From assembly GCA_029267445.1 (NCBI GenBank), contig JAJUIU010000010.1, forward strand, positions 1 through 64,000: a DNA stretch of 64,000 bases, written 5' to 3'. This DNA comes from Rhodospirillaceae bacterium (GTDB lineage: Bacteria; Pseudomonadota; Alphaproteobacteria; Azospirillales; Azospirillaceae). The translations under genes were made by a program, and so were the position numbers. Of the stretch, positions 5,904 through 61,032 are shown one piece after another (the first letter of the stretch is position 1; each line of letters opens with the position of its first letter). The notes beneath the pieces were generated by a model. It made no database searches. It saw nothing but the letters and a program-made list of their open reading frames with translations, and had not been told where the DNA came from.

Positions 5904-5914
5904 GGAGGTCGCGG

Positions 5915-45258: not shown

Positions 45259-45580
45259 GGCCTGGATTCCCTGGATCGTGGTTCTGATCGCCGCCGCGGT
45301 GACGTACTTCTCGCGCGGGCTCGGCGTTCTCGCGGGCGGGCGCATCGATCCGTCCGGCCCGTTGTTCGAATGGGTGTCCTGTGTGGCCTACGCCCTGCTC
45401 GCAGGGCTGGTGTCCCGCATGATCCTGCTGCCGCAGGGGCCGCTCGCCGACGCGCCGCTGGCCGTGCGCCTCGCCGGTGTCGCGGTAGCCCTTGTGGCGT
45501 TCTACGCGTCGGGCCGGAACCTGCTGGCGGGGATCGGGGCGGGCCTCGTCTGCCTGGCCTTGCTGACCATCCTGGTCTAG
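45251..45580 (+). CDS. azlD: AzlD-like small subunit
   Basis: 109 aa with four hydrophobic segments and the AzlD start (WIPWIVVLIAAAVTYFSRGLG). Overlaps azlC by 8 nt. Its TAG stop shares the palindrome CTAG with the stop of the convergent gene at 45577. Confidence 0.9.
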   Translation: MTEAWIPWIVVLIAAAVTYFSRGLGVLAGGRIDPSGPLFEWVSCVAYALLAGLVSRMILLPQGPLADAPLAVRLAGVAVALVAFYASGRNLLAGIGAGLVCLALLTILV

Positions 45581-45822
45581 CCGGTCGATTCCAGCCCGAA
45601 TCCGGCAGCCGTGGCACCCGGCAGGGGGGGCGTGGCGGAGGGCGCCCGCTGTTCGCAATGGCGCAGGACAGCGCGCCAGAACACGGCGGCCGGAAGATCG
45701 TCCGCCGCGATCGTCTCGACCAGGCGGACCTTGCTGGCGGCGACCGCCCGTTCGCCCAGTCGCTCGATGAGCTGCAGGGCCACGGTCAGGCTGTCGTTCC
45801 AGGGTTCATGTTCGTGTGGCAT
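45577..45822 (-). CDS. small helical protein, EcfG-type promoter
   Basis: 81 aa from ATG 45822. It starts MPHEHEPWNDSLTVALQLIE. Helical and mildly acidic, single Cys near the end, no membrane segment. It shares a CTAG with azlD at the stop. A perfect GGAAC-N16-CGTT lies 10-34 nt upstream, so this looks like a general-stress gene. Family not recognised. Confidence 0.7.
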   Translation of the reverse strand: MPHEHEPWNDSLTVALQLIERLGERAVAASKVRLVETIAADDLPAAVFWRAVLRHCEQRAPSATPPLPGATAAGFGLESTG

Positions 45823-45831: not shown

Positions 45832-45856
45832 AACGCGTCGCGCCTGTCCGCGTTCC
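45832..45856 (-). promoter_or_regulatory. EcfG-type promoter (perfect match)
   Basis: Minus-strand GGAAC-N16-CGTT, directed at the gene ending at 45577. It is paired with a divergent copy 15 nt to the right. The -10 lies only 10 nt before the ATG, implying a very short leader or an internal start. Confidence 0.7.
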
Positions 45857-45870
45857 CGGCCTCCTGACGG

Positions 45871-45895
45871 GGAACCTCTCCAAGAACAAGGCGTT
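45871..45895 (+). promoter_or_regulatory. EcfG-type promoter (perfect match)
   Basis: GGAAC-N16-CGTT at 45871-45895, 43 nt upstream of the small gene at 45938 and oriented toward it. Confidence 0.75.
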
Positions 45896-45937
45896 GGCCG
45901 GGAGGGGAGTGGGCACGCGGCCAGGGGAGCGCAGGGG

Positions 45938-46153
45938 ATGCGGCGACGCCGGAGGGAGCTCGCGGAAGGGCAGCGCTTCCGCAAGCTCGGCGCGGGCACG
46001 GGTGTCTGGGAGGTGATCGGCCTCAGGAAGGATGAAGGCGGCGCGCTCCACGTCCGGCTGCGGCGGGTCGACGACCCGAAGACGCTGAAGACGCTGGCGG
46101 CGGCGGTCCTTGACGATCCGAGGCAGTTCGTCGCGGTGGATGAGGGCGGCTGA
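45938..46153 (+). CDS. small basic protein, EcfG-type promoter
   Basis: 71 aa from ATG 45938 (GGGGAG at 8 nt). Arg-rich start (MRRRRRELAEGQRFRKLG). A compact beta-type body follows (WEVIGLRKDEGGALHVRLRRVDDPKTL). Unknown family. The upstream perfect EcfG promoter supports stress induction. Confidence 0.75.
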   Translation: MRRRRRELAEGQRFRKLGAGTGVWEVIGLRKDEGGALHVRLRRVDDPKTLKTLAAAVLDDPRQFVAVDEGG

Positions 46154-46334
46154 TGGCGCCTCCAGTGTCGGGGGCTTCACCGTGCCCGTCGCGTTTCAAT
46201 TCATGCCGCCGGCCGGCCTGGACCAAGGTCGTAGCCGCATGCGCCGCCCGGTGGATGGCGGATGCCCTTGGCGTTGGCTAGACAGGGCGGCGCGCCAACC
46301 GGCCCGCCCATGGACGCACAGGGGCTCACCCACT

Positions 46335-46544
46335 ATGGACAAGACCAGCGCTCCCCCGGCATCCGCTCCCGGCTTCGTGATCGAGGTCGGCGAAGAGGCG
46401 TTCGGCCTTGCCGTGCCGGAACGCCAGGGTGGGCTCACCTTCCACGCGGTGCATCCGGCCGCGCTGCCGCTCCACGGCGAGCGCTTCGAAGACACGGTCG
46501 ACGCCGTGCGCGCCGCCCGCGCCCTGTGGCGGCGGGCCGCCTGA
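46335..46544 (+). CDS. small protein, unknown
   Basis: 69 aa from ATG 46335 (AGGGG at 10 nt). Beta-hairpin-like middle (FVIEVGEEAFGLAVPERQGG) and a C-terminal helix ending ARALWRRAA. No family recognised; soluble. Confidence 0.65.
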   Translation: MDKTSAPPASAPGFVIEVGEEAFGLAVPERQGGLTFHAVHPAALPLHGERFEDTVDAVRAARALWRRAA

Positions 46545-46763
46545 AAGACCGCACGCGGACCGATCGATCGGAGTAATCCGCAAGGCGGGTTGGCGCCTGC
46601 CACATTCCTGCCAGCTTGAGTTGCCACATCCTTTTCTGTAACTCTTTCGCGCGGACGTGCCGGTCGACGGCGCGTCATTCGACGCGCCTGCACGGCTGAC
46701 CCGGCGAAAGGGCCGAAGGGAGCCGCCCCGCCCGGGGCGAGCCGAGGAGAAGGATAAACAACG

Positions 46764-47831
46764 ATGAAGCTTCGCCATCTGCTGATGGGAACGGCCATCG
46801 CACTGGCCCTGCCCGCAACCGCAATCGCGCAGACCCCCACCGAGGGGTTCTATGTCGGCGCGCAGGCGGGCAAGTCCTGGGTGGACAGCACCGAATTCTC
46901 GGTGCTCGGCATTTCCAACGAGGTCGAGTTCGAGAGCGCCTGGACCGGCGTGGTCGAGGCGGGTTACCGCTTCGCCCAGGGCTTCCGCCTGGGTGTCGAG
47001 GTGGGTTACGCGTCGCATGACGTCGACGGCATCACTGGCGGGCCTGCCGGCCGCACCGGCGGGGCCGGTGAACTCGCGCTGCTGTCCTACATGGGCGTCG
47101 GCTACATCGACTTCGATGCCGGCAACAACATCCGCCCGTACATCGGCGGCGGCCTGGGCCTGCTTCAGGCGGATCTGGACAATGTCGGCCCCTCGCTCGG
47201 CCTGAACACCTTCATCAATTCCGATACGGACAAGTTTGCCTACCAGCTGGGCGCGGGTGTCGGCTATGCCGTGTCCCCGAACCTGGAGCTGAGCGTCGGC
47301 TACCGCTTCCTGACCGCCGACGGCATCGAGGTGGCGGCCGCCGGTACCCGCCCCTCCTTCAACTACGACGTCACCAGCCATTCGGTGCTGGTCGGCCTGC
47401 GCTACACGTTCGGCGCGCCGCCGGCCCCGCCGCCGCCGCCGGTGACCCCGGCCGCCGCACCGGCCCAGACACCGCCGCCGCCCCCGCCGCCGCCGGCGAT
47501 CACCCGGAACTTCATGGTCTTCTTCGACTTCGACAAGTCCGACCTGACGCCTGACGCGCGCCAGGTGCTGGACAATGTCGCCGCCGAGGCGCGCAACGGC
47601 CGGATCACCGCCGTGCAGGTGACCGGCCATGCCGACCGGTCCGGCTCCGACGAGTACAACCAGCGTCTCTCCGTCCGCCGCGCCGAGGCGGTGCGGGAGT
47701 ACCTGGTCGGTCTGGGCCTGGGTGCGGGCCAGATCGCCATCGACGGCAAGGGCGAGACCGAGCCGATGGTGCCGACGGCCGATGGCGTGCGTGAGCCGTC
47801 GAACCGCCGCGCGGTCATCATCTTCCCGTGA
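46764..47831 (+). CDS. OmpA family outer membrane protein
   Basis: 355 aa. Signal peptide MKLRHLLMGTAIALALPATAIAQ, then an eight-strand beta-barrel to about residue 215. A Pro-rich linker (residues ~215-245) leads to the OmpA C-domain: FFDFDKSDLTPDARQVL and VTGHADRSGSDEYNQRLSVRRAEAV bind peptidoglycan. It anchors the outer membrane to the cell wall. Monocistronic, ending at a strong hairpin. Confidence 0.95.
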   Translation: MKLRHLLMGTAIALALPATAIAQTPTEGFYVGAQAGKSWVDSTEFSVLGISNEVEFESAWTGVVEAGYRFAQGFRLGVEVGYASHDVDGITGGPAGRTGGAGELALLSYMGVGYIDFDAGNNIRPYIGGGLGLLQADLDNVGPSLGLNTFINSDTDKFAYQLGAGVGYAVSPNLELSVGYRFLTADGIEVAAAGTRPSFNYDVTSHSVLVGLRYTFGAPPAPPPPPVTPAAAPAQTPPPPPPPPAITRNFMVFFDFDKSDLTPDARQVLDNVAAEARNGRITAVQVTGHADRSGSDEYNQRLSVRRAEAVREYLVGLGLGAGQIAIDGKGETEPMVPTADGVREPSNRRAVIIFP

Positions 47832-47880
47832 TCGGACAGGGGCCGCGCCCCTTGGCGCGGCCCACCCGCCGGAATTGACA

Positions 47881-47906
47881 AGGGGCGCCCCGTCGGGGGC
47901 GCCCCT
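47881..47906 (+). terminator. terminator after the OmpA gene
   Basis: Perfect 11-bp stem AGGGGCGCCCC / GGGGCGCCCCT with a GTCG loop, followed by TCGTCTTCC. It also faces the stop of the convergent LuxR gene. Confidence 0.75.
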
Positions 47907-47947
47907 TCGTCTTCCAGGCACCGGCGCGGCTGGGCCCGCGCGTTGGC

Positions 47948-48604
47948 TCAGGCCACCAGCGGCGCGATCCCGTTGTCGATGGCCCAGACGGCCGCCTGGG
48001 TGCGGTTGGCGGCCTTGATCTTCCGCATCACGTTCTTGAAGTGCATCTTCACGGTTGATTCCGTGATGCTGAGGCGGCGGGCGATCGCCTTGTTCGACTG
48101 GCCGCCCAGGAGGCAGGCCAGGATCTGCATCTCCCGGGGGGAGAGGTGGGAGGCACCCGGCGACCGGGACGTCGTCAGCACCAGATCGCCCCACAGACCG
48201 GTCGCCTGGGCGGGGTAGACGCTCTGCCCCAGACGCACGAGATGGAGGGTCCGCCGCACCATCTCCAGCGAGGCGGACTTCGCGAGATGCGCGTCGACCC
48301 CATGCCGGAGGCTGGCCTGCAGCGCCTGCGCTCCGGTGTCGTTCGACAGCACCACGAGGCCGGCGCGCGGTGCCGCCGAACGCAGACGCGCGAGGATATT
48401 CCCCCGTTCCCCCGGGCTCACGGGGCCGGGATCGACCAGGATGAAGTCCGGCTCCTCGCCCGCGTCCAGTTCGGACAGCGCGGCGTCGGCGGCCGCGAAG
48501 ACCCCGACCACGACCATGTCGCCGGCCAGAAGCGTGGTCAGCGCCGCGCCGAACAGCCGGTCGCGGTCAATCAGCAGCACCCGTTCCCGCATTGTCCGGT
48601 TCAT
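47948..48604 (-). CDS. LuxR/NarL-type response regulator (atypical receiver)
   Basis: 218 aa. The receiver domain has acidic DRDR near residue 13 and Asp in FILVDPG where the phospho-site is expected. HTH: LSPREMQILACLLGGQSNKAIARRLSITESTVKMHFKNVMRKI. ATG 48604 follows AAGGAGG. Divergently transcribed from a second LuxR-type gene across a 248-nt AT-rich gap; no kinase gene adjoins. Confidence 0.9.
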   Translation of the reverse strand: MNRTMRERVLLIDRDRLFGAALTTLLAGDMVVVGVFAAADAALSELDAGEEPDFILVDPGPVSPGERGNILARLRSAAPRAGLVVLSNDTGAQALQASLRHGVDAHLAKSASLEMVRRTLHLVRLGQSVYPAQATGLWGDLVLTTSRSPGASHLSPREMQILACLLGGQSNKAIARRLSITESTVKMHFKNVMRKIKAANRTQAAVWAIDNGIAPLVA

Positions 48605-48852
48605 CTTCCCTCCTTGAAAGATAAAATTTTATCAAAATAAGAAACGAAATTCACAGCGATTTTGAATATTGCCATATCCGGCGCTCTTCTCTTCCCTAAT
48701 CTGGTCTCTTAACTCGATATTTCCGGCGAATATAGCGCCAGAATAACGATTTTGAACAGGGGAAACTTGCCAAGGGTATCGAAATGGGTATTCTCCTTTG
48801 GCGAGGGGCGCCGTGAGCCCCGGTTCGCACGAGGACGGCGAGGAGGTCGGTC
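48605..48852. promoter_or_regulatory. AT-rich divergent control region between two LuxR genes
   Basis: This gap is much richer in A and T than its surroundings. It holds a perfect 14-bp palindrome GATAAAATTTTATC at 48620-48633, beside the leftward start. Two direct GGGTAT copies 12 nt apart lie near 48770-48790. Likely operators for one or both regulators. Confidence 0.5.
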
Positions 48853-49638
48853 ATGAGCGTTCTGGTCCGCCGGGCTCCAACCCGGGATGCTTCCCAAGCT
48901 TCCGACTATCCGGACACCGGGCGGGAGCCCGCCGTGGCGCTGGTCCGCCACGGGGGGCGGCGCGGCGTCTGCCTCCTGATCGAGCCGCAGGCCATGGTGC
49001 GGCGGGGGCTGGCCCTGATGCTGGCGGGGCACCGCTCCGGGATCGAGGTGCAGGAGGCCGCGACGGTGGAGCAGGGGATCGCCATGGCGGCGCACGCGGC
49101 CGTGGACCTCGTTCTGGTGGATATCGCCGCATTGCCCGGCGACCGCATGGAGGAGCTGCGGCGCCTGTCGCGCATGGTGCAGCCGGCGGCCATCCTGGTG
49201 ACCAGCGGGGAGGGGGCCCCGCATCTCGCCCGTGCCTGCCTTGCCGCCGGGGCGCGTGGCTTCGTCGCCAAGTCGGACCCGTCGGCCGTGCTGGAGCTTG
49301 TGGCCGATCTCCTGCTTCAGCGGGGGGAGCGGGGGGATGTCGCCTATGTGCAGATCCCGCGCTGGGCGATCGGCGGCGGGACCTCCGCAGGCGGAGCCGC
49401 TGCGGAGGATGCCGGTGCCGCCGGGGCGCTGGAGGCCTTGACGGCGCGCCAGCGGGAAATCTTCCACTTGCTGGAAGCTGGCTGCTCCAACAAGGAGATC
49501 GCCCGCCGGCTGGGTGTGCTGGAAGGCACGGTGAAGGTGCATGTTCGGGCGGTCATGGGCCGCCTGGGCCTGCGCAACCGCACACAGGTGGCCATCCTCG
49601 CGGCCCGCGCCGCCGGCCGGCGGAGCGAATCCGCCTGA
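48853..49638 (+). CDS. LuxR/NarL-type response regulator (second)
   Basis: 261 aa from ATG 48853 (GAGGAGG at 6 nt). The receiver starts about residue 39 (VCLLIEPQAMVRRGLALML), with Asp in LVLVDIAALPG and Lys in GFVAKSD. A Gly/Ala linker precedes the HTH (LTARQREIFHLLEAGCSNKEIARRLGVLEGTVKVHVRAVM). It has a longer disordered N-terminus than the divergent partner. Paralogous pair. Confidence 0.9.
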   Translation: MSVLVRRAPTRDASQASDYPDTGREPAVALVRHGGRRGVCLLIEPQAMVRRGLALMLAGHRSGIEVQEAATVEQGIAMAAHAAVDLVLVDIAALPGDRMEELRRLSRMVQPAAILVTSGEGAPHLARACLAAGARGFVAKSDPSAVLELVADLLLQRGERGDVAYVQIPRWAIGGGTSAGGAAAEDAGAAGALEALTARQREIFHLLEAGCSNKEIARRLGVLEGTVKVHVRAVMGRLGLRNRTQVAILAARAAGRRSESA

Positions 49639-49657
49639 GGCGCCCGCTGGGGGCGCC
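49639..49657. terminator. hairpin between LuxR and cheZ
   Basis: GGCGCCC and GGGCGCC form a 7-bp stem with a GCTGG loop directly at the stop codon, in a convergent gap. Confidence 0.45.
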
Positions 49658-49665
49658 CGGCCCTG

Positions 49666-50385
49666 TCAGTCGAACAGCGCGTCGATATCCGCCTGGGTCA
49701 CGGTCTCGTTCGGCTTCGCCGGACCGTGCAGGTCCAGCCCCGCGTCCTTGCGGTGGACCGCCGGCGGCAATGGCAGGGCCTCGAACTCCTTGCGGTTCCA
49801 AAGCGACATCATCGCGTCGATCCGCTCCTCGATGAAGGCGAGGGCCTGGACGACCTTGGTGATGCGCTGCCCGGTCAGGTCCTGGAAGTTGCACGCCTCG
49901 TAGATGCGCAGGACGACCTCGTTCAGGTCGTTGAGGCGGGAGTTCTGATATCCATCGGGAAGCTGCGAGCGGACCTCGGACACGATGTCCTCGATCTGCT
50001 CGGCCGCGCCGATGATGGTGTTGGTCGCCTGCTCCGTTGCCTTCACCACCGCCATGAGTTGCTCGCTCGCCTCCTGGAACCGGTCTTCGGAGGAGAGCGG
50101 ATGGCGGATCGCCGCCATCTCCAGCTTGGTCGCCTTGATCCGGCCCGCGATGTCCTGGATCTCGGCCTGCACCTGCTCGATCTTCACATGGTCCTGGCTG
50201 AGGAAGCGGTCCAGCTTCGTGCCAAGCGCGTCGATCGCCGCCAGCACCTCCGTGTTGTCGGCCGGGGCGGGGATGGCTGCCGGGGCGGTGGGGGGCGCCG
50301 CTGGTCCGGCGGTGGCGGTCAGGCGCGCGTTCCGTTCCGCCAGCTGGCGCTCCGCCATGAAGGGCCGCTTACCTGGACCGGTCAT
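49666..50385 (-). CDS. cheZ: chemotaxis phosphatase CheZ-like
   Basis: 239 aa from ATG 50385 (GGAGG at 5 nt). The long central helices include the catalytic ACNFQDLTGQRITKVVQAL with the acid/Gln pair. The C-terminal peptide TQADIDALFD is the CheY-binding tail. It would dephosphorylate CheY-P to reset the motor. No other che genes are in the window. CheZ is present in only some alphaproteobacteria, which matches a Rhodospirillales placement. Confidence 0.88.
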   Translation of the reverse strand: MTGPGKRPFMAERQLAERNARLTATAGPAAPPTAPAAIPAPADNTEVLAAIDALGTKLDRFLSQDHVKIEQVQAEIQDIAGRIKATKLEMAAIRHPLSSEDRFQEASEQLMAVVKATEQATNTIIGAAEQIEDIVSEVRSQLPDGYQNSRLNDLNEVVLRIYEACNFQDLTGQRITKVVQALAFIEERIDAMMSLWNRKEFEALPLPPAVHRKDAGLDLHGPAKPNETVTQADIDALFD

Positions 50386-50509
50386 CCGCGCCTCCGTCGT
50401 CCGTCCGGGTCGCAGTCAGCCCGGGCGCCCGGCAAGGATGCCCCGGAATTTCTGAAAATTGCATTGAGAATCGCGACAGGTCGGGCGGCAGGGGCGCCGC
50501 GTCGCGCCG

Positions 50510-50863
50510 TCAGCCCCTGAACACCGTGTAGGACCAGGGGCTGACGACAAGGGGAACGTGATGGTCCTGGTCGGCATCCGCGATGGAGAGGCGGACGGAG
50601 ACGACGTTCAGGAACCGGGGTTCCGCCTCGACGACCGCGTTCTCCCGGAAATAGGCGCCCATGTGGAAGCGCAGCTCGTATTCTCCCCGCTCGAACTCCT
50701 CACCGGCCATCAGCGGTTTCGTCGTCCGCCCGTCCTCGCCGGTCACCATCTCCCGGATCGGGTGGATGGCGTCATTGGGGCCGAGCCAGAACACCTCCAC
50801 ATGGACACCGTCGGCGGGGCGCCCGTGCAGGGAGTCGAAAACCTGTGTGGTGAGGATGGCCAT
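50510..50863 (-). CDS. hiuH: 5-hydroxyisourate hydrolase
   Basis: 117 aa, transthyretin-like. N-terminal TTQVFDSLHGRPADGVHV with His; middle T-G-E-D-G-R-T; late DADQDHHVPLVVSPWSYTVFRG. It hydrolyses 5-hydroxyisourate in uric acid breakdown. The C-terminal tetrapeptide is F-R-G rather than the common Y-R-G-S. No other purine breakdown genes adjoin. Confidence 0.9.
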   Translation of the reverse strand: MAILTTQVFDSLHGRPADGVHVEVFWLGPNDAIHPIREMVTGEDGRTTKPLMAGEEFERGEYELRFHMGAYFRENAVVEAEPRFLNVVSVRLSIADADQDHHVPLVVSPWSYTVFRG

Positions 50864-50956
50864 GTGCCCGGTCCGTTCGCAGCCGGGGAAGATGAAAACG
50901 GGGGCGGCGGCTTGTCAATCGGTCTCTCGGCGCATGACGGACGGCGCGCGCGGCGG

Positions 50957-50981
50957 GGAACCGTCGGTGCTGCGGGCCGTT
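50957..50981 (+). promoter_or_regulatory. EcfG-type promoter (perfect match)
   Basis: GGAAC-N16-CGTT with the -10 64 nt upstream of the DUF2892 gene at 51045, on the same strand. Confidence 0.75.
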
Positions 50982-51044
50982 GCCAGGACGAGGCGCCTTC
51001 CGGCGTCCTGCTTGCCGCCGATCCGACATCTTTGGGGAACGCAT

Positions 51045-51491
51045 ATGTCGAGCGACGCCGGTCTGGTTTCCGATTTCCTGCCCATCGGCGAGGTGAATGT
51101 CGGCCCGACGGAGCGGTTCGCCACCGCCGGGATCGGTGGCGCGCTGCTGCTCGCCGGGCTTGCGCGCGGGCAGGCCGGCGGCATCGCCATGGGCGTGCTC
51201 GGCGGCATCCTCCTGACCCGCGCGGTCACCGGCCACTGCCCGGCCTACCAAGCCCTGCGGGGCGGGCGGGGACGGGAACCGCTCGCCCTTCCGCCGTCCG
51301 ACCGCTACGGCTGGCAGGGCGGGCCCCGGTACGAGCGGGCGCGGTCGGACGATGTGGCGGAGGTGCTGGGCGGTCCGCACCCGGACACGATGCGCCAGAG
51401 CGCCCGCACGGCGCGGGACGACGTCACCCGCGACAGCGAATACTCCTTCCCGGCCAGCGATCCGCCCGGCTGGCGGGACGACAGCCGTTGA
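51045..51491 (+). CDS. DUF2892-like inner membrane protein with disordered tail
   Basis: 148 aa from ATG 51045 (GGGGA at 6 nt). The N-terminal NVGPTERFATAGIGGALLLAG and VLGGILLTRAVTGHCPAYQAL form the two-helix YgaP-type membrane domain. An acidic, Arg-rich tail with Pro follows. Such proteins are frequent general-stress genes; the perfect EcfG promoter supports that. The stop abuts the convergent rlmJ stop with no gap. Confidence 0.82.
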   Translation: MSSDAGLVSDFLPIGEVNVGPTERFATAGIGGALLLAGLARGQAGGIAMGVLGGILLTRAVTGHCPAYQALRGGRGREPLALPPSDRYGWQGGPRYERARSDDVAEVLGGPHPDTMRQSARTARDDVTRDSEYSFPASDPPGWRDDSR

Positions 51492-52346
51492 TCAGGAGGC
51501 GGGCCGTTCCTCGCCCCTGATCCAGTCCACGGCGGCGCCACCGGCGGCGGCGCCCAGGGACAGGTGCAGGGCGGGGAGCAGTTCGGCCAGGATGGCGTCC
51601 AGCTGCCAGGGTGGGTTGACCAGCACCATGCCGGACCCGTTCAACCGGTCGTGCCGGTCCTCTCCGCCCCAGGTCAGCTCGGCGGCGAGCATCTTCGGGA
51701 TGCCCGTATCCTCGAGCGCCTGATGCAGGCGCCAGACGGCGGCCCTGTCCTTGATCGGGTGCCACAGGGCGAACTGCCCCGTCGGCCAGCGCCGGTGGGC
51801 GAGGCGCAGCCCCTGTACCAGCCGGTCCAGATCGTCCGGCGCCTCGAACGGCGGGTCGACCAGGACGAGGCCGCGTTTCTCCGCCGGCGGTAGGAAGGCC
51901 TTCAGCGCCAGCCATCCATCCATGTGATGCACGGCCGTCCGCCCGTCGCCCGCGAACTCGCGCCGCAAGGCCGCCGCGTCGTCCGGGTGCAGCTCCGCCA
52001 GCACCAGCCTGTCCTGGTCGCGCAGGAACGCGCGGGCGAGGCGGGGGGAACCCGGATACCAGCGGATACCTTCCCCCCCGGTGTTGAACGACCGCACCGC
52101 CGCCAGATAGGGGGCCAGGGCCGGATGCGCCCGCGCATCGCCCAGGACGCGGCGGATGCCGGCGTCCGCCTCCCCGGTGCGGCGGGCCGCGTCGGCGGTC
52201 AGGTCGTACCGCCCGATCCCGGCATGGGTGTCCAGCACGCAGAAGGGGGCCGGCTTCGCCCGCAGCCGTTCCAGCAGCAGGCACAGCACCGCGTGCTTCA
52301 TCACGTCGGCCGCGTTCCCGGCATGGAAGGCGTGGCGGTAGTTCAT
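51492..52346 (-). CDS. rlmJ: 23S rRNA m6A2030 methyltransferase RlmJ
   Basis: 284 aa. Family start MNYRHAFHAGNAADVMKHAVL; SAM motif VLDTHAGIGRYDL; catalytic GLVLVDPPFEAPDD (the D-P-P-F motif). It methylates A2030 in 23S rRNA. The upstream EamA transporter gene ends 4 nt away on the same strand. Confidence 0.95.
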   Translation of the reverse strand: MNYRHAFHAGNAADVMKHAVLCLLLERLRAKPAPFCVLDTHAGIGRYDLTADAARRTGEADAGIRRVLGDARAHPALAPYLAAVRSFNTGGEGIRWYPGSPRLARAFLRDQDRLVLAELHPDDAAALRREFAGDGRTAVHHMDGWLALKAFLPPAEKRGLVLVDPPFEAPDDLDRLVQGLRLAHRRWPTGQFALWHPIKDRAAVWRLHQALEDTGIPKMLAAELTWGGEDRHDRLNGSGMVLVNPPWQLDAILAELLPALHLSLGAAAGGAAVDWIRGEERPAS

Positions 52347-52350
52347 GGGC

Positions 52351-53304
52351 CTAGGGCAGCTCCCCGCGCAGCTTTGTCGGCGGCGCCGTGGCGACGCCGA
52401 GCTTGATCTCGCGCAGGGTGATGTAGACGCCGCTCGCCACCACCACCAGGGCGCCGATCGCGACGAACAGGTCCGGCACCTCCCCCCAGATCAGGAAGCC
52501 CCAGGCCGTCGCCCAGATCATCGCGGTGTAGTCGAATGGCGCGATCACGGCCACCGGCGCCTGCCGGTACGCCTGGGTCAGCAGCACCTGGGCGATGCCC
52601 CCGATCAGGCCGATGGCGATCAGCAGGGCGGCGTCCGCCGGGTCCGGCATCACAAACTGGAATGGCAATACCAGGCCACTGGCCAAGGCCGCCGCGACCA
52701 TGAAGTAGAAGACGATGGTCGTGCTGGGCTCCGTCGTCGACAGCCGCCGGATGGAGATCATCGCCAGTGCCGCGAGGCAGGCGCCGGTGAGCGCCAGGAC
52801 GCTGCCCAGCGGCAGCCCCCCGTTCGTCAGCCCGTCGGCGGCACCGGCCGCATCCGGGCGCAGCATGATCATGACCCCGGCGAATCCGACGATCAGCGCA
52901 AGCGTGCGGCGCCAGCGCACGCGCTCGCCCAGGATGATGACGCCGAGAAGGGTCGTGAACAGCGGGGCCGTGAAGCCCAGCGCCACGGCGTTCGCCAGCG
53001 GCAGCAGCGTGATCGCCGTGAAGCCGCAGGTCATCGCCGCGACACCGGCGGCGCAGCGCCAGGCATGGCCCCAGGGGCGCCCGGTCTTCAGCGACGCGAC
53101 CCCACCCGCCGCCGCGATCAGCGGCCAGATCGCCACCAGCGCGAAGACCGCGCGGAAGAACACGATCTGGCTGACCGGGTAGGTGTCCCCCAGCCACTTG
53201 ATCATCGCGTTCATGGTGGAAAACAAGAAGATGGCCGCCACCATGCTTCCGATCGCCCGGACGAGGCTCGGCGACGCGGCGGATTGCAGCGGGGCGGTTG
53301 TCAT
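52351..53304 (-). CDS. EamA/DMT family transporter
   Basis: 317 aa from ATG 53304. Ten hydrophobic segments in two repeated five-helix halves. The first half has IFLFSTMNAMIKWLGDTYPV and the second QAYRQAPVAVIAPFDYTAMIW. It ends in a short cytoplasmic tail. Family members export metabolites such as amino acids or drugs; the substrate is not deducible. Confidence 0.92.
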   Translation of the reverse strand: MTTAPLQSAASPSLVRAIGSMVAAIFLFSTMNAMIKWLGDTYPVSQIVFFRAVFALVAIWPLIAAAGGVASLKTGRPWGHAWRCAAGVAAMTCGFTAITLLPLANAVALGFTAPLFTTLLGVIILGERVRWRRTLALIVGFAGVMIMLRPDAAGAADGLTNGGLPLGSVLALTGACLAALAMISIRRLSTTEPSTTIVFYFMVAAALASGLVLPFQFVMPDPADAALLIAIGLIGGIAQVLLTQAYRQAPVAVIAPFDYTAMIWATAWGFLIWGEVPDLFVAIGALVVVASGVYITLREIKLGVATAPPTKLRGELP

Positions 53305-53440
53305 GCGCGGCGGGGAAGCGGTGGTCAGGCGGCAATGCGCCCAACAGTTGGTCCACGCGGGCGCCCGCGGCAAACACGAAGTTCGGCATGGCAGGGCCGC
53401 GCCGTCACCATGGCCGTCGATGCCGCGCAGGAAACGCCGC

Positions 53441-54292
53441 TCAGCTCAGCGGCTTGGCGTTCACCGCGTCGAAGGCGCGACGGGTCGCCTCGGCGATCAC
53501 CGGCTTGCCGGCGGGCTTGCAGCGCGATGCGTCGAAAAGGTCGGCGGACGGGGCACCGAGTGCCGTCAGCTGGCTCAGCACCTTGCACTGGTACAGCCGC
53601 CCCTTGCCGTTCGTGCCGCCGTTATAGCGCGCGACGGCCCCGGCCCAGCTTCCCGTCTCGCCACGCAGGCGGACCAGGTACCGGGCGGCGAACCGCACGT
53701 TGGAGCGCGGCTCAACGATCTTCTCGACCGGGCGGAAGCTGTTCTTGTGGTGGGAGAGCGACAGCTGCATGCAGCCGGCCATGACGCCGCCGCGCAGCCG
53801 TCCCTGCGGGTCGCGCAGATAGCGCGCTGCATCGGCCTCGTTCTTGGCGTAGATGGCCCGCCCCCGGATGTTGAGCGCGAAGGGGGCGGGATAGCCGCCG
53901 CGCCCGCTTTCCACCAGCGCGATGCCGAGCAACAGGCCGCGCGGGATCCCGAACTCGGTCTCCATGGCCAGGATGCTCTCCAGGCAGCTGCCGGACGTCT
54001 CCGCCGGCTGCGCCGGCCTCGTCTGCGGCGCGGGGCCCTGGCGGCGGACGCTGGCGGGCGCCACGGCCGGCTTCGCGGCAGGCGCCACGGCCGGCTTCGC
54101 GGCGGGCAGCACGGTGGCCGGAACGGCGGTCGGGCCCGAGGATGCGCTTGTTGTGGGGGCGGGTGTCGAGGCGAAACCGGTGGCCGGAAGCATGGCGGCC
54201 AGCGCCAGGGCGGTCGCGGCGAACGCCGTGCGGACTCCACGGAAGGATTCGGGGCGGGGAAGGGCGGGGCGAACTGCCGGCGCTGTCTTCAT
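53441..54292 (-). CDS. SLT-domain lytic transglycosylase-like protein
   Basis: 283 aa from ATG 54292 (GGAG at 7 nt). A hydrophobic signal segment lies about 28-42; the linker contains a duplicated AAKPAVAP repeat. The goose-type/SLT core has LLLGIALVESGRGG with the catalytic Glu, then MAGCMQLSLSHHKNSF and AVARYNGGTNGKG. It would cut peptidoglycan in the periplasm, perhaps for a secretion or flagellar structure. Two late Cys may pair. Confidence 0.87.
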   Translation of the reverse strand: MKTAPAVRPALPRPESFRGVRTAFAATALALAAMLPATGFASTPAPTTSASSGPTAVPATVLPAAKPAVAPAAKPAVAPASVRRQGPAPQTRPAQPAETSGSCLESILAMETEFGIPRGLLLGIALVESGRGGYPAPFALNIRGRAIYAKNEADAARYLRDPQGRLRGGVMAGCMQLSLSHHKNSFRPVEKIVEPRSNVRFAARYLVRLRGETGSWAGAVARYNGGTNGKGRLYQCKVLSQLTALGAPSADLFDASRCKPAGKPVIAEATRRAFDAVNAKPLS

Positions 54293-54621
54293 GATCCCAC
54301 TCCACGCTCCGGACAGGATGGGCCATCCCGCCATGGTTCCGCCCGCCTGCGCCGGGCTTCGTTCCAGGCCGCCGCTACCGATGCGGCGACCGCTCCCTCG
54401 ATCGTCGGCACGCACCATGCGCCCGCCGCATACCGATCCCAGAAATATCGAATGGGGTCAATGTGGATTCGGGGCCGCGCCGTTACCCCGAAAGCACACT
54501 GCCGATGGCGGAGGGACCGCGCGCCGGGGTTGACCTGCGTCAATGTCCGCCCAGGCCCGGCCGGGAGAGGATCGGACCGTCGACGGCCGCGCCGTCCAAG
54601 GAGAAACCAGGAGTCAGTCCC

Positions 54622-54867
54622 GTGACCGACAAGCACGACCTGCTGCACGAGTTCCCCGAGCATCGCGAGCGGATCCATCTGCTGAAGACGTCCAACGCCC
54701 ATTTCGCCCGCCTGTTCGCGGAGTATCACGAGGTCGATCACGCGGTCCGCCGCATGGACGACAACACCGAACCCGCCTGCGACGAGCGGATGGAGGAGGC
54801 CAAGCGCCGCCGCCTGCATCTGAAGGACGAACTTTATGCGATGATCCGCGCCCAGGCGGCGGAGTGA
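54622..54867 (+). CDS. YdcH/DUF465 family protein
   Basis: 81 aa from GTG 54622 (AGGAG at 8 nt). Helical hairpin: HDLLHEFPEHRERIHLLKTSNAHFARLFAEYHEVDHAV, then RLHLKDELYAMI. This is the DUF465 pattern; function unknown in the family. The start choice avoids an upstream frame with no ribosome site. Confidence 0.88.
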   Translation: MTDKHDLLHEFPEHRERIHLLKTSNAHFARLFAEYHEVDHAVRRMDDNTEPACDERMEEAKRRRLHLKDELYAMIRAQAAE

Positions 54868-54923
54868 CCGGTCGCTGAGTTGTCCCGGCCGGCGGGCTTG
54901 CCCCGCCGGAAGGCCTAGGCCAT

Positions 54924-56333
54924 ATGTCCGAGCGGTGTCCGGCCCTTGCCGGGCGCCGTGCTCGTTCAGGGCCGACCGCTTTGCCTGATCCCATCACTAC
55001 GACCGCCGACCTGCTTCCCGAAGGCAGCGCCGCCACCCGGTTCGCGCAAGCCGAGGCGGCGCTCGCGGCGGCTTACGACGCGCTCGACGCGGGCGACCGG
55101 GAGGCGGCCGAGGCGGCACTCCGCCGGGCGCTGGCGGTCGATCCTGCCTTCCACGAGGCGCATGGCGCCCTGGCGGAGCTGCTGGCGGAGGCCGGCCGGC
55201 ATGGGGAGGCCGTACCGCATTACCGCGCCGGGCTGCAGGGCGATCCCGGCCGCACCGCATGGCATCGTGGCCTCGCCGCCGCGCTTGAGGCCACGGGACG
55301 CGTCGAGGACGCGCTGGCCGCCTGCCGCACCCTGCTGGACAGGCGACCGGACGACGCGCCCACCCATCGCCGCCTCGCCCGCCTGCTCGCCGTAGCCGGG
55401 GAGGGGGAGGCGGCGCTCGACCATGCGCGCGAGGCCCGGTTCCTGGACGGGGACCGGCTGCCCGCCCTGGTCGAGATCGCGGAGGCCCTGCTGCTCGCGG
55501 GCGAACCCTTGCAGGCGGTGGAACTGCTGGAGCCGGCGCTGCGCCGCGCACCCGGGGACGATCCGGCGGGGCGCGAGGGGACCATCCTGCAGGCGCGCTG
55601 CTGGGCTGAGCTTGGCGAACCGGACAAGGCGCGCCGGGCCCTTGGCGCCTTGTCGCCGTTGGATGACTCGCCGCAGATCGCGGCCGTCCGTGACCGCATC
55701 GCGCGGGCCGAGGCCGACCTCGCCCCCGCCTTCGTCCGCGCCTTGTTCGACCGCTATGCCGACCGGTTCGAATCCGACCTCGTCGGCAAGTTGGACTATC
55801 GGGGCCCCGCGCTGATCGCGGCGGCCTTGGACAGGGTGGGGGTAGGCCGGGACCTGCGGGTGCTCGACGCCGGCTGCGGCACCGGGCTGGCGGCCCCGAT
55901 CCTGCGCGACCGGGCGGCCCGGCTGGACGGCTTCGACCTGTCGCCCCGCATGGTGGAGAAGGCGCGGGCGCGCGGCCTGTACGACGCGCTGGAGGTGGGG
56001 GATCTCGTCGCGGTGATCGGGCGGTACGCCGCAGACTGGGACCTGATCGTGGCGGCCGACGTGCTGGTCTATGTCGGCGCCCTCGGGCCCGTGTTGGCGG
56101 CGGCGGCGCGGGCGCTCCGGCCCGGCGGCCGACTCGTTGCCACGCTCGAAGCCTGCGAGGGTGCGACCTTCCGTCTGCAGGAAAGCCGCCGCTACGCCCA
56201 TGCCCCCGCCTATGTCCAGGAAACGGCGGCGGCGGTCGGGCTCACCGTGGAGCTGCTGGAGGCCTGTTCGGCCCGGCGGGACCGGGGGGCGCCCGTGCCC
56301 GGCCTGCTCGTCTGCCTCCGCCGCGCGGCCTAG
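54924..56333 (+). CDS. TPR-containing class I SAM methyltransferase
   Basis: 469 aa. TPR-like repeats fill residues ~35-265 (AAEAALRRALAVDPAFHEAH and similar). A methyltransferase domain of about 180 residues follows, with motif I VLDAGCGTGLAAP, DLIVAADVLVYVG and LRPGGRLVATLEA. This fusion type often methylates polysaccharide, lipid or protein targets; none can be named. Its TAG stop shares CTAG with the convergent lrgB stop. Confidence 0.88.
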   Translation: MSERCPALAGRRARSGPTALPDPITTTADLLPEGSAATRFAQAEAALAAAYDALDAGDREAAEAALRRALAVDPAFHEAHGALAELLAEAGRHGEAVPHYRAGLQGDPGRTAWHRGLAAALEATGRVEDALAACRTLLDRRPDDAPTHRRLARLLAVAGEGEAALDHAREARFLDGDRLPALVEIAEALLLAGEPLQAVELLEPALRRAPGDDPAGREGTILQARCWAELGEPDKARRALGALSPLDDSPQIAAVRDRIARAEADLAPAFVRALFDRYADRFESDLVGKLDYRGPALIAAALDRVGVGRDLRVLDAGCGTGLAAPILRDRAARLDGFDLSPRMVEKARARGLYDALEVGDLVAVIGRYAADWDLIVAADVLVYVGALGPVLAAAARALRPGGRLVATLEACEGATFRLQESRRYAHAPAYVQETAAAVGLTVELLEACSARRDRGAPVPGLLVCLRRAA

Positions 56334-57046
56334 CGCAGCAAGTCGAACAGCGCCGGCACCAGCAGGGCCGTCAGGAAGGCGTTCAGCGCCATGGCGATGC
56401 CGGAGAAGGTGCCGGCCAGCGACGTCTCCTGAAAGGCGGCGGCCGTGCCGATGCCGTGCGCCGCGGTACCCAGGGCAGCACCCCGCGCGCGGGCGTCGCG
56501 CACCCGCAGCAGGTTCAACAGCGCCGCGCCGGTCATCGCCCCCGTGATGCCGGTGAGGATGACGAGCGTGGCTGTCAGCGACGGCAGCCCGCCGATCTGC
56601 TCCGCGATGCCCATGGCGACCGGCGCCGTGACCGATTTCGGCGCGATGGAGGCCACGGTGCCGGGGCTGCCGCCCAGCCATTCCGCCAGCAGCACTGCGG
56701 AAACCAGCGCCGTCAGCGATCCGGCCGTCAGCGCCGCCGCAAGGGGCAGGGCCGACCTGCGCACCGCCCTGCGGTGCCGCCAGATCGGAACGGCCAGGGC
56801 CACCGTCGTCGGTCCCAGCAGGAAATGCACGAACTGCGCCCCGTCGAAGTAGGTGGCATAGGGCGTGTCCGTCGCCAGCAGCACCAGGATCAGCAGGACC
56901 ACCGCGATGGCGACCGGGTTGGCCCAGGCCCGCCGGCCGCTGCGTTCGAACAGCCGCACGCCGACCAGGTAGGCCGCCAGCGTCGCCGTCAGCCACAGCA
57001 GCGGGCTTGCCGCCAGATAGACCCAGATGTCGTCAAGCCCGCTCAT
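56330..57046 (-). CDS. lrgB: LrgB/CidB-like membrane protein
   Basis: 238 aa from ATG 57046, within the lrgA stop (ATGA). Multiple membrane helices. LrgB features: FVHFLLGPTTVALAVP, LAPKS-like IAPKSVTAPVAMGIAEQIGG and GTAAHGIGTAAAF. It works with LrgA in holin-like control of cell wall turnover or of small-metabolite export. Confidence 0.92.
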   Translation of the reverse strand: MSGLDDIWVYLAASPLLWLTATLAAYLVGVRLFERSGRRAWANPVAIAVVLLILVLLATDTPYATYFDGAQFVHFLLGPTTVALAVPIWRHRRAVRRSALPLAAALTAGSLTALVSAVLLAEWLGGSPGTVASIAPKSVTAPVAMGIAEQIGGLPSLTATLVILTGITGAMTGAALLNLLRVRDARARGAALGTAAHGIGTAAAFQETSLAGTFSGIAMALNAFLTALLVPALFDLLR

Positions 57047-57411
57047 TCCGGCGGCTCCCCCGGCACTGGCTCCCCCTCCGGCCCCGCCAGCAGGCGGAAC
57101 ACCAGCCCCGTCACCGCCAAGGTCGCCAGCGTGCTCACCAGCAGGGCCGCGACGATCGCCGGCCACTCGGCGCCGATCCGGCCCGCATGCAGCAGCACGC
57201 CCGTCCCGGCCGGAACGAACAGGAGCGACAGGTTGGCCAGAAGTCCGTCCGCGACCCGGTCCAGCTCCGCGTCCGGGCCGCCGTGCCGCAGCAGCCAGAG
57301 GAACAGCAGCGCGGCACCGATGACCGGCCCCGGAACCGGAAGGCCGAGGCCGCGCGCCGCCAGCTCGCCGATCAGCTGGCAGATCAGGAGTGCGGCGACG
57401 GCCCGGATCAT
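57043..57411 (-). CDS. lrgA: LrgA/CidA-like holin-like protein
   Basis: 122 aa with four hydrophobic segments: LLICQLIGELAARGLGLPVPGPVIGAALLFL is the CidA/LrgA signature, and LSLLFVPAGTGVLLH a second. Coupled to lrgB by ATGA. Confidence 0.92.
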   Translation of the reverse strand: MIRAVAALLICQLIGELAARGLGLPVPGPVIGAALLFLWLLRHGGPDAELDRVADGLLANLSLLFVPAGTGVLLHAGRIGAEWPAIVAALLVSTLATLAVTGLVFRLLAGPEGEPVPGEPPE

Positions 57412-57456
57412 GGGAACCCTCCCTTCAGGTCCGGGCCGAAGCCTAGCACGCCCACG

Positions 57457-58947
57457 TCACAATGCAGGCAGCGGCAGACGCAGGGGGGATGGCCCGGACT
57501 CCGCCTGCCACTCCGCCAGCAGGCTCCCGTCGGTCTGGCCCGCCAGCGACAGCCAGTTGCGGCAGCGCAGGATACGGCGGCCCGTCTCCGGGAAGGCGTG
57601 CATCTCCAGGTCGAGCCCGTCGAACAGCGTCTCCCGGCCGGAGGCCGCCCGCTCCATCATGTCGAGCGCGAAGCCGCCGGGCGGGGGATGCACGATGCCG
57701 GAACTGACCAGCTGCCGCATGTCGAGGTCGAGGCCCCGGATGCCCCCGCTGGCGCCGAAATGCACCTCGCCCGACAGCACCGTCACGCGGCAGCGGGTCT
57801 CGCGCGTGAAGCCGGCCAGCAGGCGCACCAGCCGCCGCCACTCCTCCCGGTGGGTGGGGCTGCGCCACTGGTCGCGCAGATCGTCCTCCAGGCGCTGACG
57901 CCCCGGCAGCCAGGACAGCAGGCGCTCCGCCAGTCCGAATCCTGGGAAGACCACCGGGACGCTGGACATCAGCAGCAGGTGCCGGCAGTCCCGGAAACGC
58001 TCCAGCCAGCCCGGCAGCAGGGCCCAGCTCTCGGCGGACAGCACCCGGTCCGGCCGCCGCTCCGCCCTGAGGTCGAGGGCGAGGATGCCGGTGCCGTCCA
58101 GGCGGATCGCCTGGGTGTGCGTACCGGGCGGACCGCACAGCGTCTCCGGCGGGTCGTCCGGCGACATGCCCAGCTGGAAATGCCGGAAGGCCCGGCGCGC
58201 GGACCTGTAGATCGCCTGATAGACCGGACTGTCGAGCAGGTCGGCGGGATGGGAGCCCCAGCCATCGATGATGTCGTGGTCGTCCCACATGCAGAAGGCG
58301 GGCAGTGAGGCCAGGACCGCCGCCGGCTCGGGCTGGCCCCAGCCGCGGCGGTAGACCTCCAGGTACCAGCGGTCGAGCTGTCCCTCGAGTTCCGGCGGGG
58401 CGTCCGCCGCCGCGCGCCTAGCGTCGCTGAGCCCCGCCAGGGGGGAAAGCCTCTGCACGCCCGTCCACAGTCCGTCAGCGTAGACCTGGTCCCCGCCCAT
58501 CAGCAGCAGATGGAACGGCTGCGCCCTGTGGCGCCCCAGCAGTCCACCCCAGAGCGTGTTGCGCGACAGACCCGCGGCGGCGATCTCCGCCTCGTCCTCG
58601 CAGCCGCCGCACGCGGCGAAGGCGATGCGGGGCGGCAGGACCGTGCCCTGCACGGGGAAGTGCCAGCTCCGGGGATCGTCGACGAAGCCGTAGGAGCAGC
58701 GGCTCTCCTGCGGTCCGCGCGGCACGGCGAAGTCGTAGCGCCAGAGGGTCTCGCCGCCATAGTCGTGCAGGAAGCGCGGGGGGATCGCGATCCGAACACC
58801 GTCCGCCCGCATGTCGGGCGGGTCCCTGTCGCCCGCGACCAGCACCGTGGCCGACACGCGCCAGCGATCCCCCTGGGTGCCGCGTGCGTGCAGGATGGGC
58901 CCAAGGCGCAGATCCGGCCCGGCGCGGCGGTGTCGTCGGCTCACCAT
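57457..58947 (-). CDS. PhoD-like metallophosphatase
   Basis: 496 aa. Metal-site motifs in order: HLLLMGGDQVYADG (about residue 165), FCMWDDHDIIDGWGS (about 233) and VTVLSGEVHFG (about 396). A short beta-rich N-domain precedes them. No signal or lipobox is visible, unlike classical secreted PhoD, so this is probably a cytoplasmic member. Substrate unknown. Confidence 0.87.
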   Translation of the reverse strand: MVSRRHRRAGPDLRLGPILHARGTQGDRWRVSATVLVAGDRDPPDMRADGVRIAIPPRFLHDYGGETLWRYDFAVPRGPQESRCSYGFVDDPRSWHFPVQGTVLPPRIAFAACGGCEDEAEIAAAGLSRNTLWGGLLGRHRAQPFHLLLMGGDQVYADGLWTGVQRLSPLAGLSDARRAAADAPPELEGQLDRWYLEVYRRGWGQPEPAAVLASLPAFCMWDDHDIIDGWGSHPADLLDSPVYQAIYRSARRAFRHFQLGMSPDDPPETLCGPPGTHTQAIRLDGTGILALDLRAERRPDRVLSAESWALLPGWLERFRDCRHLLLMSSVPVVFPGFGLAERLLSWLPGRQRLEDDLRDQWRSPTHREEWRRLVRLLAGFTRETRCRVTVLSGEVHFGASGGIRGLDLDMRQLVSSGIVHPPPGGFALDMMERAASGRETLFDGLDLEMHAFPETGRRILRCRNWLSLAGQTDGSLLAEWQAESGPSPLRLPLPAL

Positions 58948-59016
58948 GGGGGTGTTATGGGGACGAACTCCGGCGGACGGAAGGGGCCGCCGCGCCCTGG
59001 CCTCTCGCGGCGGGTG

Positions 59017-59235
59017 TCAGTCCGGCTTCCCGGCCCGGCCCTGCAGGATGCTGAGCATGGCCTCGGGCACGGGTTCGTCCAGCACCGAATCGTAGAGCCG
59101 GTGCAGCTCCTCCACCTGCCTGCGGTAGCGGTTGAGCAGCGCGCGCGCCTGCGGATCGCTCTCCAACGCGGCCTCGATCTCGCGCCGTTCGGTGTCCGAC
59201 AGGGCGCCATCGAGGTAGGCGTTGATGTCGTTCAT
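59017..59235 (-). CDS. short anti-sigma factor without membrane segment
   Basis: 72 aa from ATG 59235; ATGs at 59250 and 59256 are alternatives. It has the anti-sigma N-domain layout: INAYLDGALSDTERREIEAAL, ALLNRYRRQVEELHRLYDSVLDEPVPEAM. The usual downstream membrane helix and periplasmic domain are missing. The EPVP end also recalls NepR-type anti-sigma factors. No Zn-binding HxxxCxxC is visible. A perfect EcfG promoter precedes it, and an ECF sigma gene lies 1.1 kb away. Confidence 0.72.
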   Translation of the reverse strand: MNDINAYLDGALSDTERREIEAALESDPQARALLNRYRRQVEELHRLYDSVLDEPVPEAMLSILQGRAGKPD

Positions 59236-59322
59236 GTCCAACCGCTTCATCAACATTGTCCGGACCACCCATTCGCCTTCGCCCGCCCATCCAGCGCGCG
59301 TTGCTGTCCGGGGCAACGCATC

Positions 59323-59347
59323 AACGGCGGACGCGACATGTTGTTCC
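59323..59347 (-). promoter_or_regulatory. EcfG-type promoter (perfect match), anti-sigma gene
   Basis: Minus-strand GGAAC-N16-CGTT about 90 nt upstream of the anti-sigma start. Its -35 is back to back with the SDR promoter -35, forming GTTCC-C-GGAAC. Confidence 0.75.
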
Positions 59348-59348
59348 C

Positions 59349-59373
59349 GGAACGGCGTCCGCCACCCGCTGTT
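59349..59373 (+). promoter_or_regulatory. EcfG-type promoter (one mismatch), SDR gene
   Basis: GGAAC-N16-TGTT, divergent from the perfect copy on the other strand, 32 nt upstream of the SDR start. Confidence 0.6.
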
Positions 59374-59404
59374 GTCCGCTGCGAACATGGCGGTGGAGAT
59401 GACG

Positions 59405-60280
59405 ATGGTCCCGGACGCAGGAATTCCCGATCCCAAAGGACAGCCGGCGCAGCATCAACAGCGGCAGCCGGGCCGCGAATCCGAGATGCAACCCAAGCCT
59501 GTCGTCATCCATGACGACTACCAGGGAAGCGGCCGGCTGACCGGCAAGGTCGCGATGATCACCGGCGGCGACAGCGGCATCGGCCGCGCCGTGGCCGTCC
59601 ATTTCGCCCGCGAGGGCGCGGATATCGCCATTGGGTACCTCGAAGAAGACCGCGACGCCGAAGAGACCCGCCGGATGGTGGAGGCGGAGGGACGGCGCTG
59701 CATCGCCTTCAAGGGCGACCTCGGATACGAGGAGCGCTGCCGGGAGTTCGTCGCGAAGACGCTGGAGGCGTTCGGGCGCATCGACATCGTCGTGAACAAC
59801 GCGGCCGAGCAGCATGCCCGCGAATCCATCGCCGAGATTTCCGCCGATCAGCTGGAGCGGACCTTCCGCACCAACATCTTCGCGCACTTCTACCTGACCA
59901 AGGCGGCGCTGCCCCATCTGAAGTCCGGCGCCAGCGTCATCTGCACGACCTCGATCACCGCCTATCGCGGCAATCCGCAGCTGATCGACTATTCCGCCAC
60001 CAAGGGCGCCATCGTGACCTTCGTGCGGTCCCTGGCTGCCAGTCTCGCCGACAAGGGCATCCGGGTGAACGGCGTCGCCCCCGGCCCGATCTGGACGCCC
60101 CTGATCCCGGCGACGTTCCCGGAGGAGAAGGTTGCGAAGTTCGGGACGGGTGAGCCGCTGGGCCGGGCGGGCCAGCCGGCCGATGTCGCCCCGAGCTACG
60201 TGTTCCTGGCTTCGCGCGACGCGAATTACATCACCGGACAGGTGCTGCATCCCAACGGGGGCGAGCCGGTCGGCGGCTGA
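59405..60280 (+). CDS. stress-type short-chain dehydrogenase/reductase
   Basis: 291 aa from ATG 59405, which follows GGTGGAG. A polar Gln/Pro-rich N-extension is seen in YhdF/Ydad-type stress SDRs. Rossmann motif MITGGDSGIGRAVAVHFAREGAD; NNAAEQ; catalytic Ser in CTTSITAYRG; Y-S-A-T-K. NAD(P)-dependent oxidoreductase, substrate unknown. Expression from an EcfG-like promoter is probable. Confidence 0.88.
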   Translation: MVPDAGIPDPKGQPAQHQQRQPGRESEMQPKPVVIHDDYQGSGRLTGKVAMITGGDSGIGRAVAVHFAREGADIAIGYLEEDRDAEETRRMVEAEGRRCIAFKGDLGYEERCREFVAKTLEAFGRIDIVVNNAAEQHARESIAEISADQLERTFRTNIFAHFYLTKAALPHLKSGASVICTTSITAYRGNPQLIDYSATKGAIVTFVRSLAASLADKGIRVNGVAPGPIWTPLIPATFPEEKVAKFGTGEPLGRAGQPADVAPSYVFLASRDANYITGQVLHPNGGEPVGG

Positions 60281-60334: not shown

Positions 60335-60808
60335 TCAGGCGTGCATGATGCTGTTCAGCCGCTCGCGGGCCCGGCACAGGCGCGAGCGGATGGTGCCGAT
60401 CGAGACGTTCAGCCTTTCCGCCGCCTCCTGGTAGGGGCGCCCCTCGATCGCCACCAGCTTCACCACTTTGCGCTGGCAGGGCGTCAGGCTCTTGAAGGCG
60501 CGGTCGACGTCCCGGCAGACGAGGCGGGACAGCTGAGTCGCCTCGACCGACGCGGCGTGGTCCCACAGCTCCACCTTGGTCATGTGCTTGTCGCGCTGGA
60601 GATTGTTGAAATGCAGGTTCTTCAGCATGGTCGTCAGCCACGCCTGCATGTTGGTGCCCGGCTCGAAACGGTGCGAGCGGGACAGGGCGCGCGCGACGCA
60701 GTCCTGGGTCAGGTCCTCCGCGGCGGTGGCGTCGCGGGTCAGCTTGCAGGCGTATCGGTGCAGGGCCGGAATGCAGGTCACGAGTTCATCGCTGAACGAG
60801 TAGGACAT
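60335..60808 (-). CDS. ECF sigma factor, EcfG-like
   Basis: 157 aa from ATG 60808 (CGGAG at 6 nt). Region 2 has LTRDATAAEDLTQDCVARALSRSHRFEPGTNMQAWL. Region 4 has LTPCQRKVVKLVAIEGRPYQEAAERLNVSIGTIRSRLCRARERL. The layout resembles the EcfG/ECF15 general-stress sigma factors more than RpoE types. Perfect EcfG promoters in this window make it a candidate reader, but phyR and nepR proper are not here, so assignment is provisional. Confidence 0.85.
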   Translation of the reverse strand: MSYSFSDELVTCIPALHRYACKLTRDATAAEDLTQDCVARALSRSHRFEPGTNMQAWLTTMLKNLHFNNLQRDKHMTKVELWDHAASVEATQLSRLVCRDVDRAFKSLTPCQRKVVKLVAIEGRPYQEAAERLNVSIGTIRSRLCRARERLNSIMHA

Positions 60809-60867
60809 GTATGGCTCCGTTGCTTCATGACAGCCTGATGGCTAGGGCTGGATTGGCGATTGCTTCG

Positions 60868-60892
60868 GGAACTCCCTCCTCGGCACGTCGTC
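60868..60892 (+). promoter_or_regulatory. EcfG-like promoter, no gene downstream
   Basis: GGAAC-N16-CGTC, one base from consensus. Directed rightward into the gap before glgP, away from the sigma gene. Confidence 0.4.
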
Positions 60893-61014
60893 ATCACCTC
60901 CTCGCGCCAGACGCTTCGATCCGGGCGCACCCCCGCCGTTCGCGGCGGGTGGTCCCCGTCCGCGCCGGATCGGCGGCGCTGATCGTCATGGCTGGATGCG
61001 GATCAGGATGTCGT

Positions 61015-61032
61015 GGGGCCGGGATCGGCCCC
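61015..61032. repeat. hairpin, copy 3 of a recurring motif
   Basis: GGGGCCG-GGAT-CGGCCCC, a perfect 7-bp stem, same stem and GNAT loop as at 5886 and 24172. No T-tract follows. Confidence 0.45.

Follow-up and report, generated by a model that had tools for sequence, protein, structure and literature searches.

A recurring promoter-like signal in the stretch of DNA analysed here (64,000 nucleotides; hereafter, the window) raises the question of whether it marks a genuine set of stress-gene promoters and, if so, which sigma factor reads them. The initial annotation had listed four perfect matches to GGAAC-N16-CGTT, put the chance expectation below one per 64 kb, and described the sites as an EcfG-type regulon. 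A pattern search of the window reproduced the coordinates and strands of all four, each lying upstream of a correctly oriented gene at 10 to 73 nt from its called start (gene starts are from our own gene calls with a fixed codon model). The computed expectation is 0.34, and none of 100 shuffles gave six matches, which is the true number in the window rather than four. The additional pair, 22055-22079 (-) and 40902-40926 (-), lies antisense within coding genes; both were rejected as promoters and are probably due to chance. The four sites and the genes that follow them are listed below.

45577-45822 (-): gene for an 81-aa protein
45832-45856 (-): predicted promoter of the 81-aa gene, GGAAC-N16-CGTT, 10 nt from the start (pattern match)
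45871-45895 (+): predicted promoter of the 71-aa gene, GGAAC-N16-CGTT, 43 nt from the start (pattern match)
45938-46153 (+): gene for a 71-aa protein, conserved in the family
50957-50981 (+): predicted promoter of the YgaP-like gene, GGAAC-N16-CGTT, 64 nt from the start (pattern match)
51045-51491 (+): gene for a YgaP-like transmembrane protein (formerly DUF2892), 148 aa (PF11127)
59017-59250 (-): gene for a putative 77-aa soluble anti-sigma factor with a zf-HC2 N-terminal part and a NepR-like C-terminal part
59323-59347 (-): predicted promoter of the anti-sigma gene, GGAAC-N16-CGTT, 73 nt from the start (pattern match; C/TGTT counterparts in relatives)

When any base was allowed before GTT at spacings of 16 or 17, six of ten window matches were intergenic and no more than 150 nt from a start, against two of 33 at 19 other spacings used as a control (p = 0.0008). 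Pattern searches combined with fetched stretches of the genome gave 36 N16 matches genome-wide versus 20 for the reversed pattern, and 23 N17 matches versus 11. These correspond to 57 distinct matches, of which 38 are intergenic, 16 antisense and three sense; the intergenic expectation, taken from the coding share of the window, is ~16%. Matches are mostly intergenic, and the genome-wide excess is moderate; much of what matches perfectly outside the window is therefore background. The pattern alone is therefore a noisy guide, and conservation is required. Other intergenic perfect matches lie 43-78 nt before genes on contigs C52, C161 and C56 of genome G000 and in loci L065, L067 and L056; judged by eye, the genes that follow encode entericidin-like, inositol-phosphate synthase, PHA-synthase-like, DUF2934-like, CBS-domain and response regulator proteins.

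An ECF sigma factor gene has a predicted promoter of its own, the sole N17 CGTT match in the window, which was absent from the earlier list.

60335-60808 (-): gene for an ECF sigma factor of 157 aa, candidate reader of the promoters (family orthologues 76-94% identical)
60809-61163 (-): predicted long leader of the ECF mRNA, following the promoter and extending 355 nt past the -10 box
61003-61080 (-): short ORF in the leader, 25 codons, with a Shine-Dalgarno-like sequence (from leader comparison)
61164-61189 (-): predicted promoter of the ECF gene, GGAAC-N17-CGTT, 356 nt upstream (pattern match, conserved in orthologues; autoregulation predicted)

A perfect GGAAC-N16/17-CGTT is present on the same strand, 185-409 nt upstream, in all 34 named orthologues of this gene, which derive from Azospirillum, Skermanella, Oleisolibacter, Aerophototrophica, Arenibaculum, a record titled Roseomonas genomospecies 6 and one MAG. 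The 403 kb of orthologue loci contain just 37 such matches in total, so that few occur outside the ECF promoters. A perfect promoter in 34 of 34 orthologues points to positive autoregulation of the gene. By our own count, 31 of 35 leaders have the short ORF at a fixed position (0.35 expected per leader); in most of them it starts 83-90 nt past the -10 box, and in one clade 45 nt past it. Its start signal is kept, yet the three codon positions vary alike, with no third-position excess; a conserved leader peptide was rejected on this ground, and any role of the ORF is thus not attributable to the peptide. The ECF gene is adjoined by a glycogen phosphorylase gene (61584 to beyond 64000, +), a neighbourhood that is kept in relatives, even in ECF-less ones (L217-L219).

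Imperfect matches also occur, four of which, at 39585, 39867, 59349 and 60868, had been named in the initial annotation.

38928-38952 (+): weak site GTAAC-N16-TGTT upstream of the DUF892 gene 38999-39517 (one-mismatch sites in relatives)
39585-39609 (+): weak site AGAAC-N16-CGTT upstream of the 57-aa gene 39678-39851 (one-mismatch sites in relatives)
39867-39892 (+): predicted promoter of the baeRF gene, GGAAC-N17-GGTT (near match, conserved)
39954-41126 (+): gene for a baeRF-family protein, ribosome-hibernation-factor-like (family match)
59349-59373 (+): predicted promoter of the SDR gene, GGAAC-N16-TGTT, divergent from the anti-sigma promoter (near match)
59389-60280 (+): gene for an SDR oxidoreductase, start uncertain (ATG 59389, 59401, 59407 or 59486, judged from homologues)

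The sites at 39867 and 59349 stand. The baeRF promoter is found with a spacing of 16 or 17 in eight of eight homologues (GGTT in seven, TGTT in one), and the 59349 site is present in those relatives that keep the SDR gene at this place; the anti-sigma and divergent SDR genes of relatives have GGAAC-N16/17-C/TGTT promoters. The site at 39585 is weak, as is that at 38928, each having a one-mismatch counterpart at a similar position in all four homologous loci, and 60868 was discarded as a promoter, there being no gene in the right direction nearby. In the close clade, the promoter of the YgaP-like gene is present in five of five members, its spacing being 16 or 17 and its second element CGTT or TGTT.

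The 81-aa protein has no Pfam or NCBIfam match, and no family match was obtained for the 71-aa protein. With a promoter only 10 nt from its start, the mRNA of the 81-aa gene would be nearly leaderless. This gene was found in 33 of 33 genomes with the 60335 ECF, plus one without it, and its promoter motif in 15 of the 15 loci first examined; the 71-aa gene's own promoter is restricted to close relatives. Among the 35 genomes bearing the 71-aa gene, the motif beside the pair is present in all 30 with the ECF and in none of the five without it, although the compared genomes are kin and hence not independent, so that Fisher p values overstate the case, and the losses may represent two or three events. 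A 55-aa gene nearby (46377-46544, +) has a counterpart at the same place in genome G002; the 55-aa gene itself showed no promoter motif.

A short pattern in a GC-rich window might produce all of these matches by chance, and the reversed pattern does yield about half as many matches in the genome, while two of the six window matches are antisense in genes. This explanation is nevertheless highly improbable, as many species keep the signal in front of the corresponding genes; conservation refutes chance for 45832, 50957, 59323, 61164 and 39867, though not for 22055, 40902 and 60868. To judge from these comparisons, the repeated signal is a real set of predicted stress-gene promoters, which the Azospirillum family retains at the same genes. 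The cross-species conservation, and the fact that motif and sigma factor are missing together, also give good support to the earlier proposal of one regulon, with the 60335 ECF as its likely sigma factor.

Is this ECF an EcfG? The site consensus equals the published EcfG consensus, given as GGAAC-N16-CGTT for Rhizobium etli (PMC3892343) and as GAAC-N16,17-C/GGTT for Methylobacterium (PMC4814048), and conservation bears out target promoters of the EcfG form, GGAAC-N16/17-CGTT. In the phylogenetic tree, the canonical EcfG clade (Bartonella plus four sequences defined by synteny) received support of 100/99, and the 60335 ECF lies outside it, the tree giving its own clade no firm attachment. Scores against Bartonella EcfG, which we take 5uxx to be, were 157 bits for a syntenic EcfG, 98.7 and 84.4 for paralogues on contigs C13 and C49, and 82.9 for the 60335 ECF, which is no closer than an ordinary paralogue and finds no support as a canonical EcfG orthologue. 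Promoter and architecture thus support calling it EcfG-like; membership of EcfG is unsupported by the tree and the scores. The term EcfG-type accordingly suits the promoters and, in part, the circuit; for the sigma factor it lacks support, given its place outside the clade and its low bit score, and phyR is unlinked and without a promoter of this type.

The 77-aa protein scored above the Pfam cut-off for zf-HC2 and 0.8 bits short of it for NepR (24.9 vs 25.7). All 18 members of its family match both zf-HC2 and NepR (best NepR, 1.4e-7), and the sole convincing sequence relative of the family profile among solved structures is the NepR of a solved PhyR-NepR pair (3t0y_B, E 4.6e-6). The family has the NepR core of helix, EPVP and helix; the window protein is more than a short NepR part, having in addition the zf-HC2 part and four predicted helices (model pLDDT 83.5). 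In the fold comparison of this model, the best matches were anti-sigma domains, individually weak (E about 1 or more), and nothing was found at E <= 0.001. It might therefore be an ordinary soluble anti-sigma-domain protein with no tie to PhyR, its NepR match being fortuitous or a general feature of the helix before an EPVP turn. This reading is possible but rather doubtful: the predicted fold and best weak structural matches, the near-miss NepR score and the position of phyR outside the regulon favour it, whereas the six anti-sigma proteins compared that belong to other ECFs, here and in relatives, all lack a NepR match, against 18 of 18 matches in the family, and the family's distribution is identical to that of PhyR. 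Apart from these six, a 131-aa paralogue matched NepR weakly; it is encoded downstream of a C13-type ECF in a relative (L222:1428-1823).

A PhyR gene is located on another contig (C116, L024:1275-2087, -), unlinked to the ECF locus, in which the NepR-like gene lies near the ECF gene on the same strand. In its product, PF22029 and PF00072 scored above the cut-off and sigma region 4 just under it, giving the combination of sigma-like and receiver domains expected of PhyR; its best PDB matches are, we presume, full-length PhyR structures. PhyR (counted at E <= 1e-50) and the 77-aa family (E <= 1e-20) have one and the same distribution: of 59 genomes, 36 have both and the others neither. An EcfG-type promoter was found in just one of 30 regions upstream of phyR, and phyR was rejected as a regulon member.

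We consider it probable that the 60335-60808 ECF reads the sites as a single regulon, with its own gene activated, the 77-aa anti-sigma factor as inhibitor and PhyR as antagonist of the latter. The ECF would activate its own gene from the promoter 356 nt upstream, and its targets would include the genes for the anti-sigma factor, the SDR, the YgaP-like membrane protein, the baeRF protein and the two small conserved proteins. By binding the ECF, the anti-sigma factor would keep it inactive until stress leads to phosphorylated PhyR, encoded elsewhere, which would pull the anti-sigma factor away.

Instead, a different ECF paralogue, e.g. that on contig C13, may be the main reader of the promoters or an additional one, the 60335 ECF being one reader among several. 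Genomes G034, G048 and G053 retain PhyR, the anti-sigma gene and its TGTT promoter, yet a threshold of E <= 1e-50 gave no 60335 ECF orthologue in them; this promoter may thus have a different sigma factor as its reader. The C13 ECF is also closer to Bartonella EcfG, and beside it (5322-5960) lies a DUF1328-like gene (L229:4951-5115) with GGAAC-N16-TGTT upstream; several EcfG paralogues with common promoters are known in Methylobacterium (PMC4814048). We regard this alternative as unlikely, since no such promoter was found upstream of C13-type genes in the loci examined, against 34 of 34 for the 60335 gene, and the five genomes without the 60335 ECF also lack the motif at the 71-aa gene.

The proposed regulon under the 60335 ECF resembles the PhyR-NepR-EcfG (ECF15) system of Rhizobium etli, Methylobacterium extorquens and Caulobacter in its consensus, N16/N17 spacing and C/GGTT variant (PMC3892343, PMC4814048), in the self-activation of sigma and anti-sigma genes (here predicted from promoters), in its NepR-like anti-sigma factor and in a genome-encoded PhyR with sigma-like and receiver domains. 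It differs in a sigma factor outside the canonical clade, an anti-sigma factor with an additional anti-sigma-domain portion, and a phyR gene that is neither linked nor preceded by the promoter; moreover, ecf and the anti-sigma gene each have a promoter of their own, and an SDR gene often lies between them. A canonical locus also exists in the family: in G001 and G021, ecf, phyR-like and 64-69-aa NepR genes, encoding the same three kinds of protein, are adjacent. The ECF there groups with Bartonella EcfG, unlike the 60335 ECF, which these genomes lack, and matches to the hybrid anti-sigma family are absent or weak. The C49 ECF, with its larger partner-encoded anti-sigma factor (in the genome and relatives), is a small ECF of similar length whose anti-sigma factor has a similar YLDG-type N-terminal part; unlike it, the window anti-sigma factor has just 77 aa, carries the NepR motif and does not share an operon with its sigma factor. 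Tentatively, the 77-aa protein might be an intermediate between an anti-sigma domain and NepR, holding a non-canonical ECF by its anti-sigma-domain fold and being removed by PhyR through its NepR-like end. The hybrid bears on the origin of NepR: if the intermediate reading is true, NepR would represent an anti-sigma domain that became shorter, and a second lineage of sigma factors would be subject to the partner switch.

A divergent response-regulator-like pair in the window (47948-48604, - and 48934-49638, +) is probably the counterpart of the LuxR-type RC1_0848/0849 of Rhodospirillum centenum, of which RC1_0849 has been reported as a target of CgrA during cyst development (PMC4681086). Counting called genes in G002 from the pair taken as RC1_0848/0849, the R. 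centenum orthologue of the 60335 ECF is, by gene numbering, probably RC1_0862. This sigma gene is reported to change in expression when cysts form (PMC4340629). This orthology, if right, could tie the regulon to encystment. Azospirillum and its relatives are plant-growth bacteria in wide use, and the open-access papers searched did not yield an account of a general stress response dependent on PhyR in them. The present analysis supplies specific candidates for the sigma factor, the anti-sigma factor and PhyR of such a response, together with a list of predicted targets.
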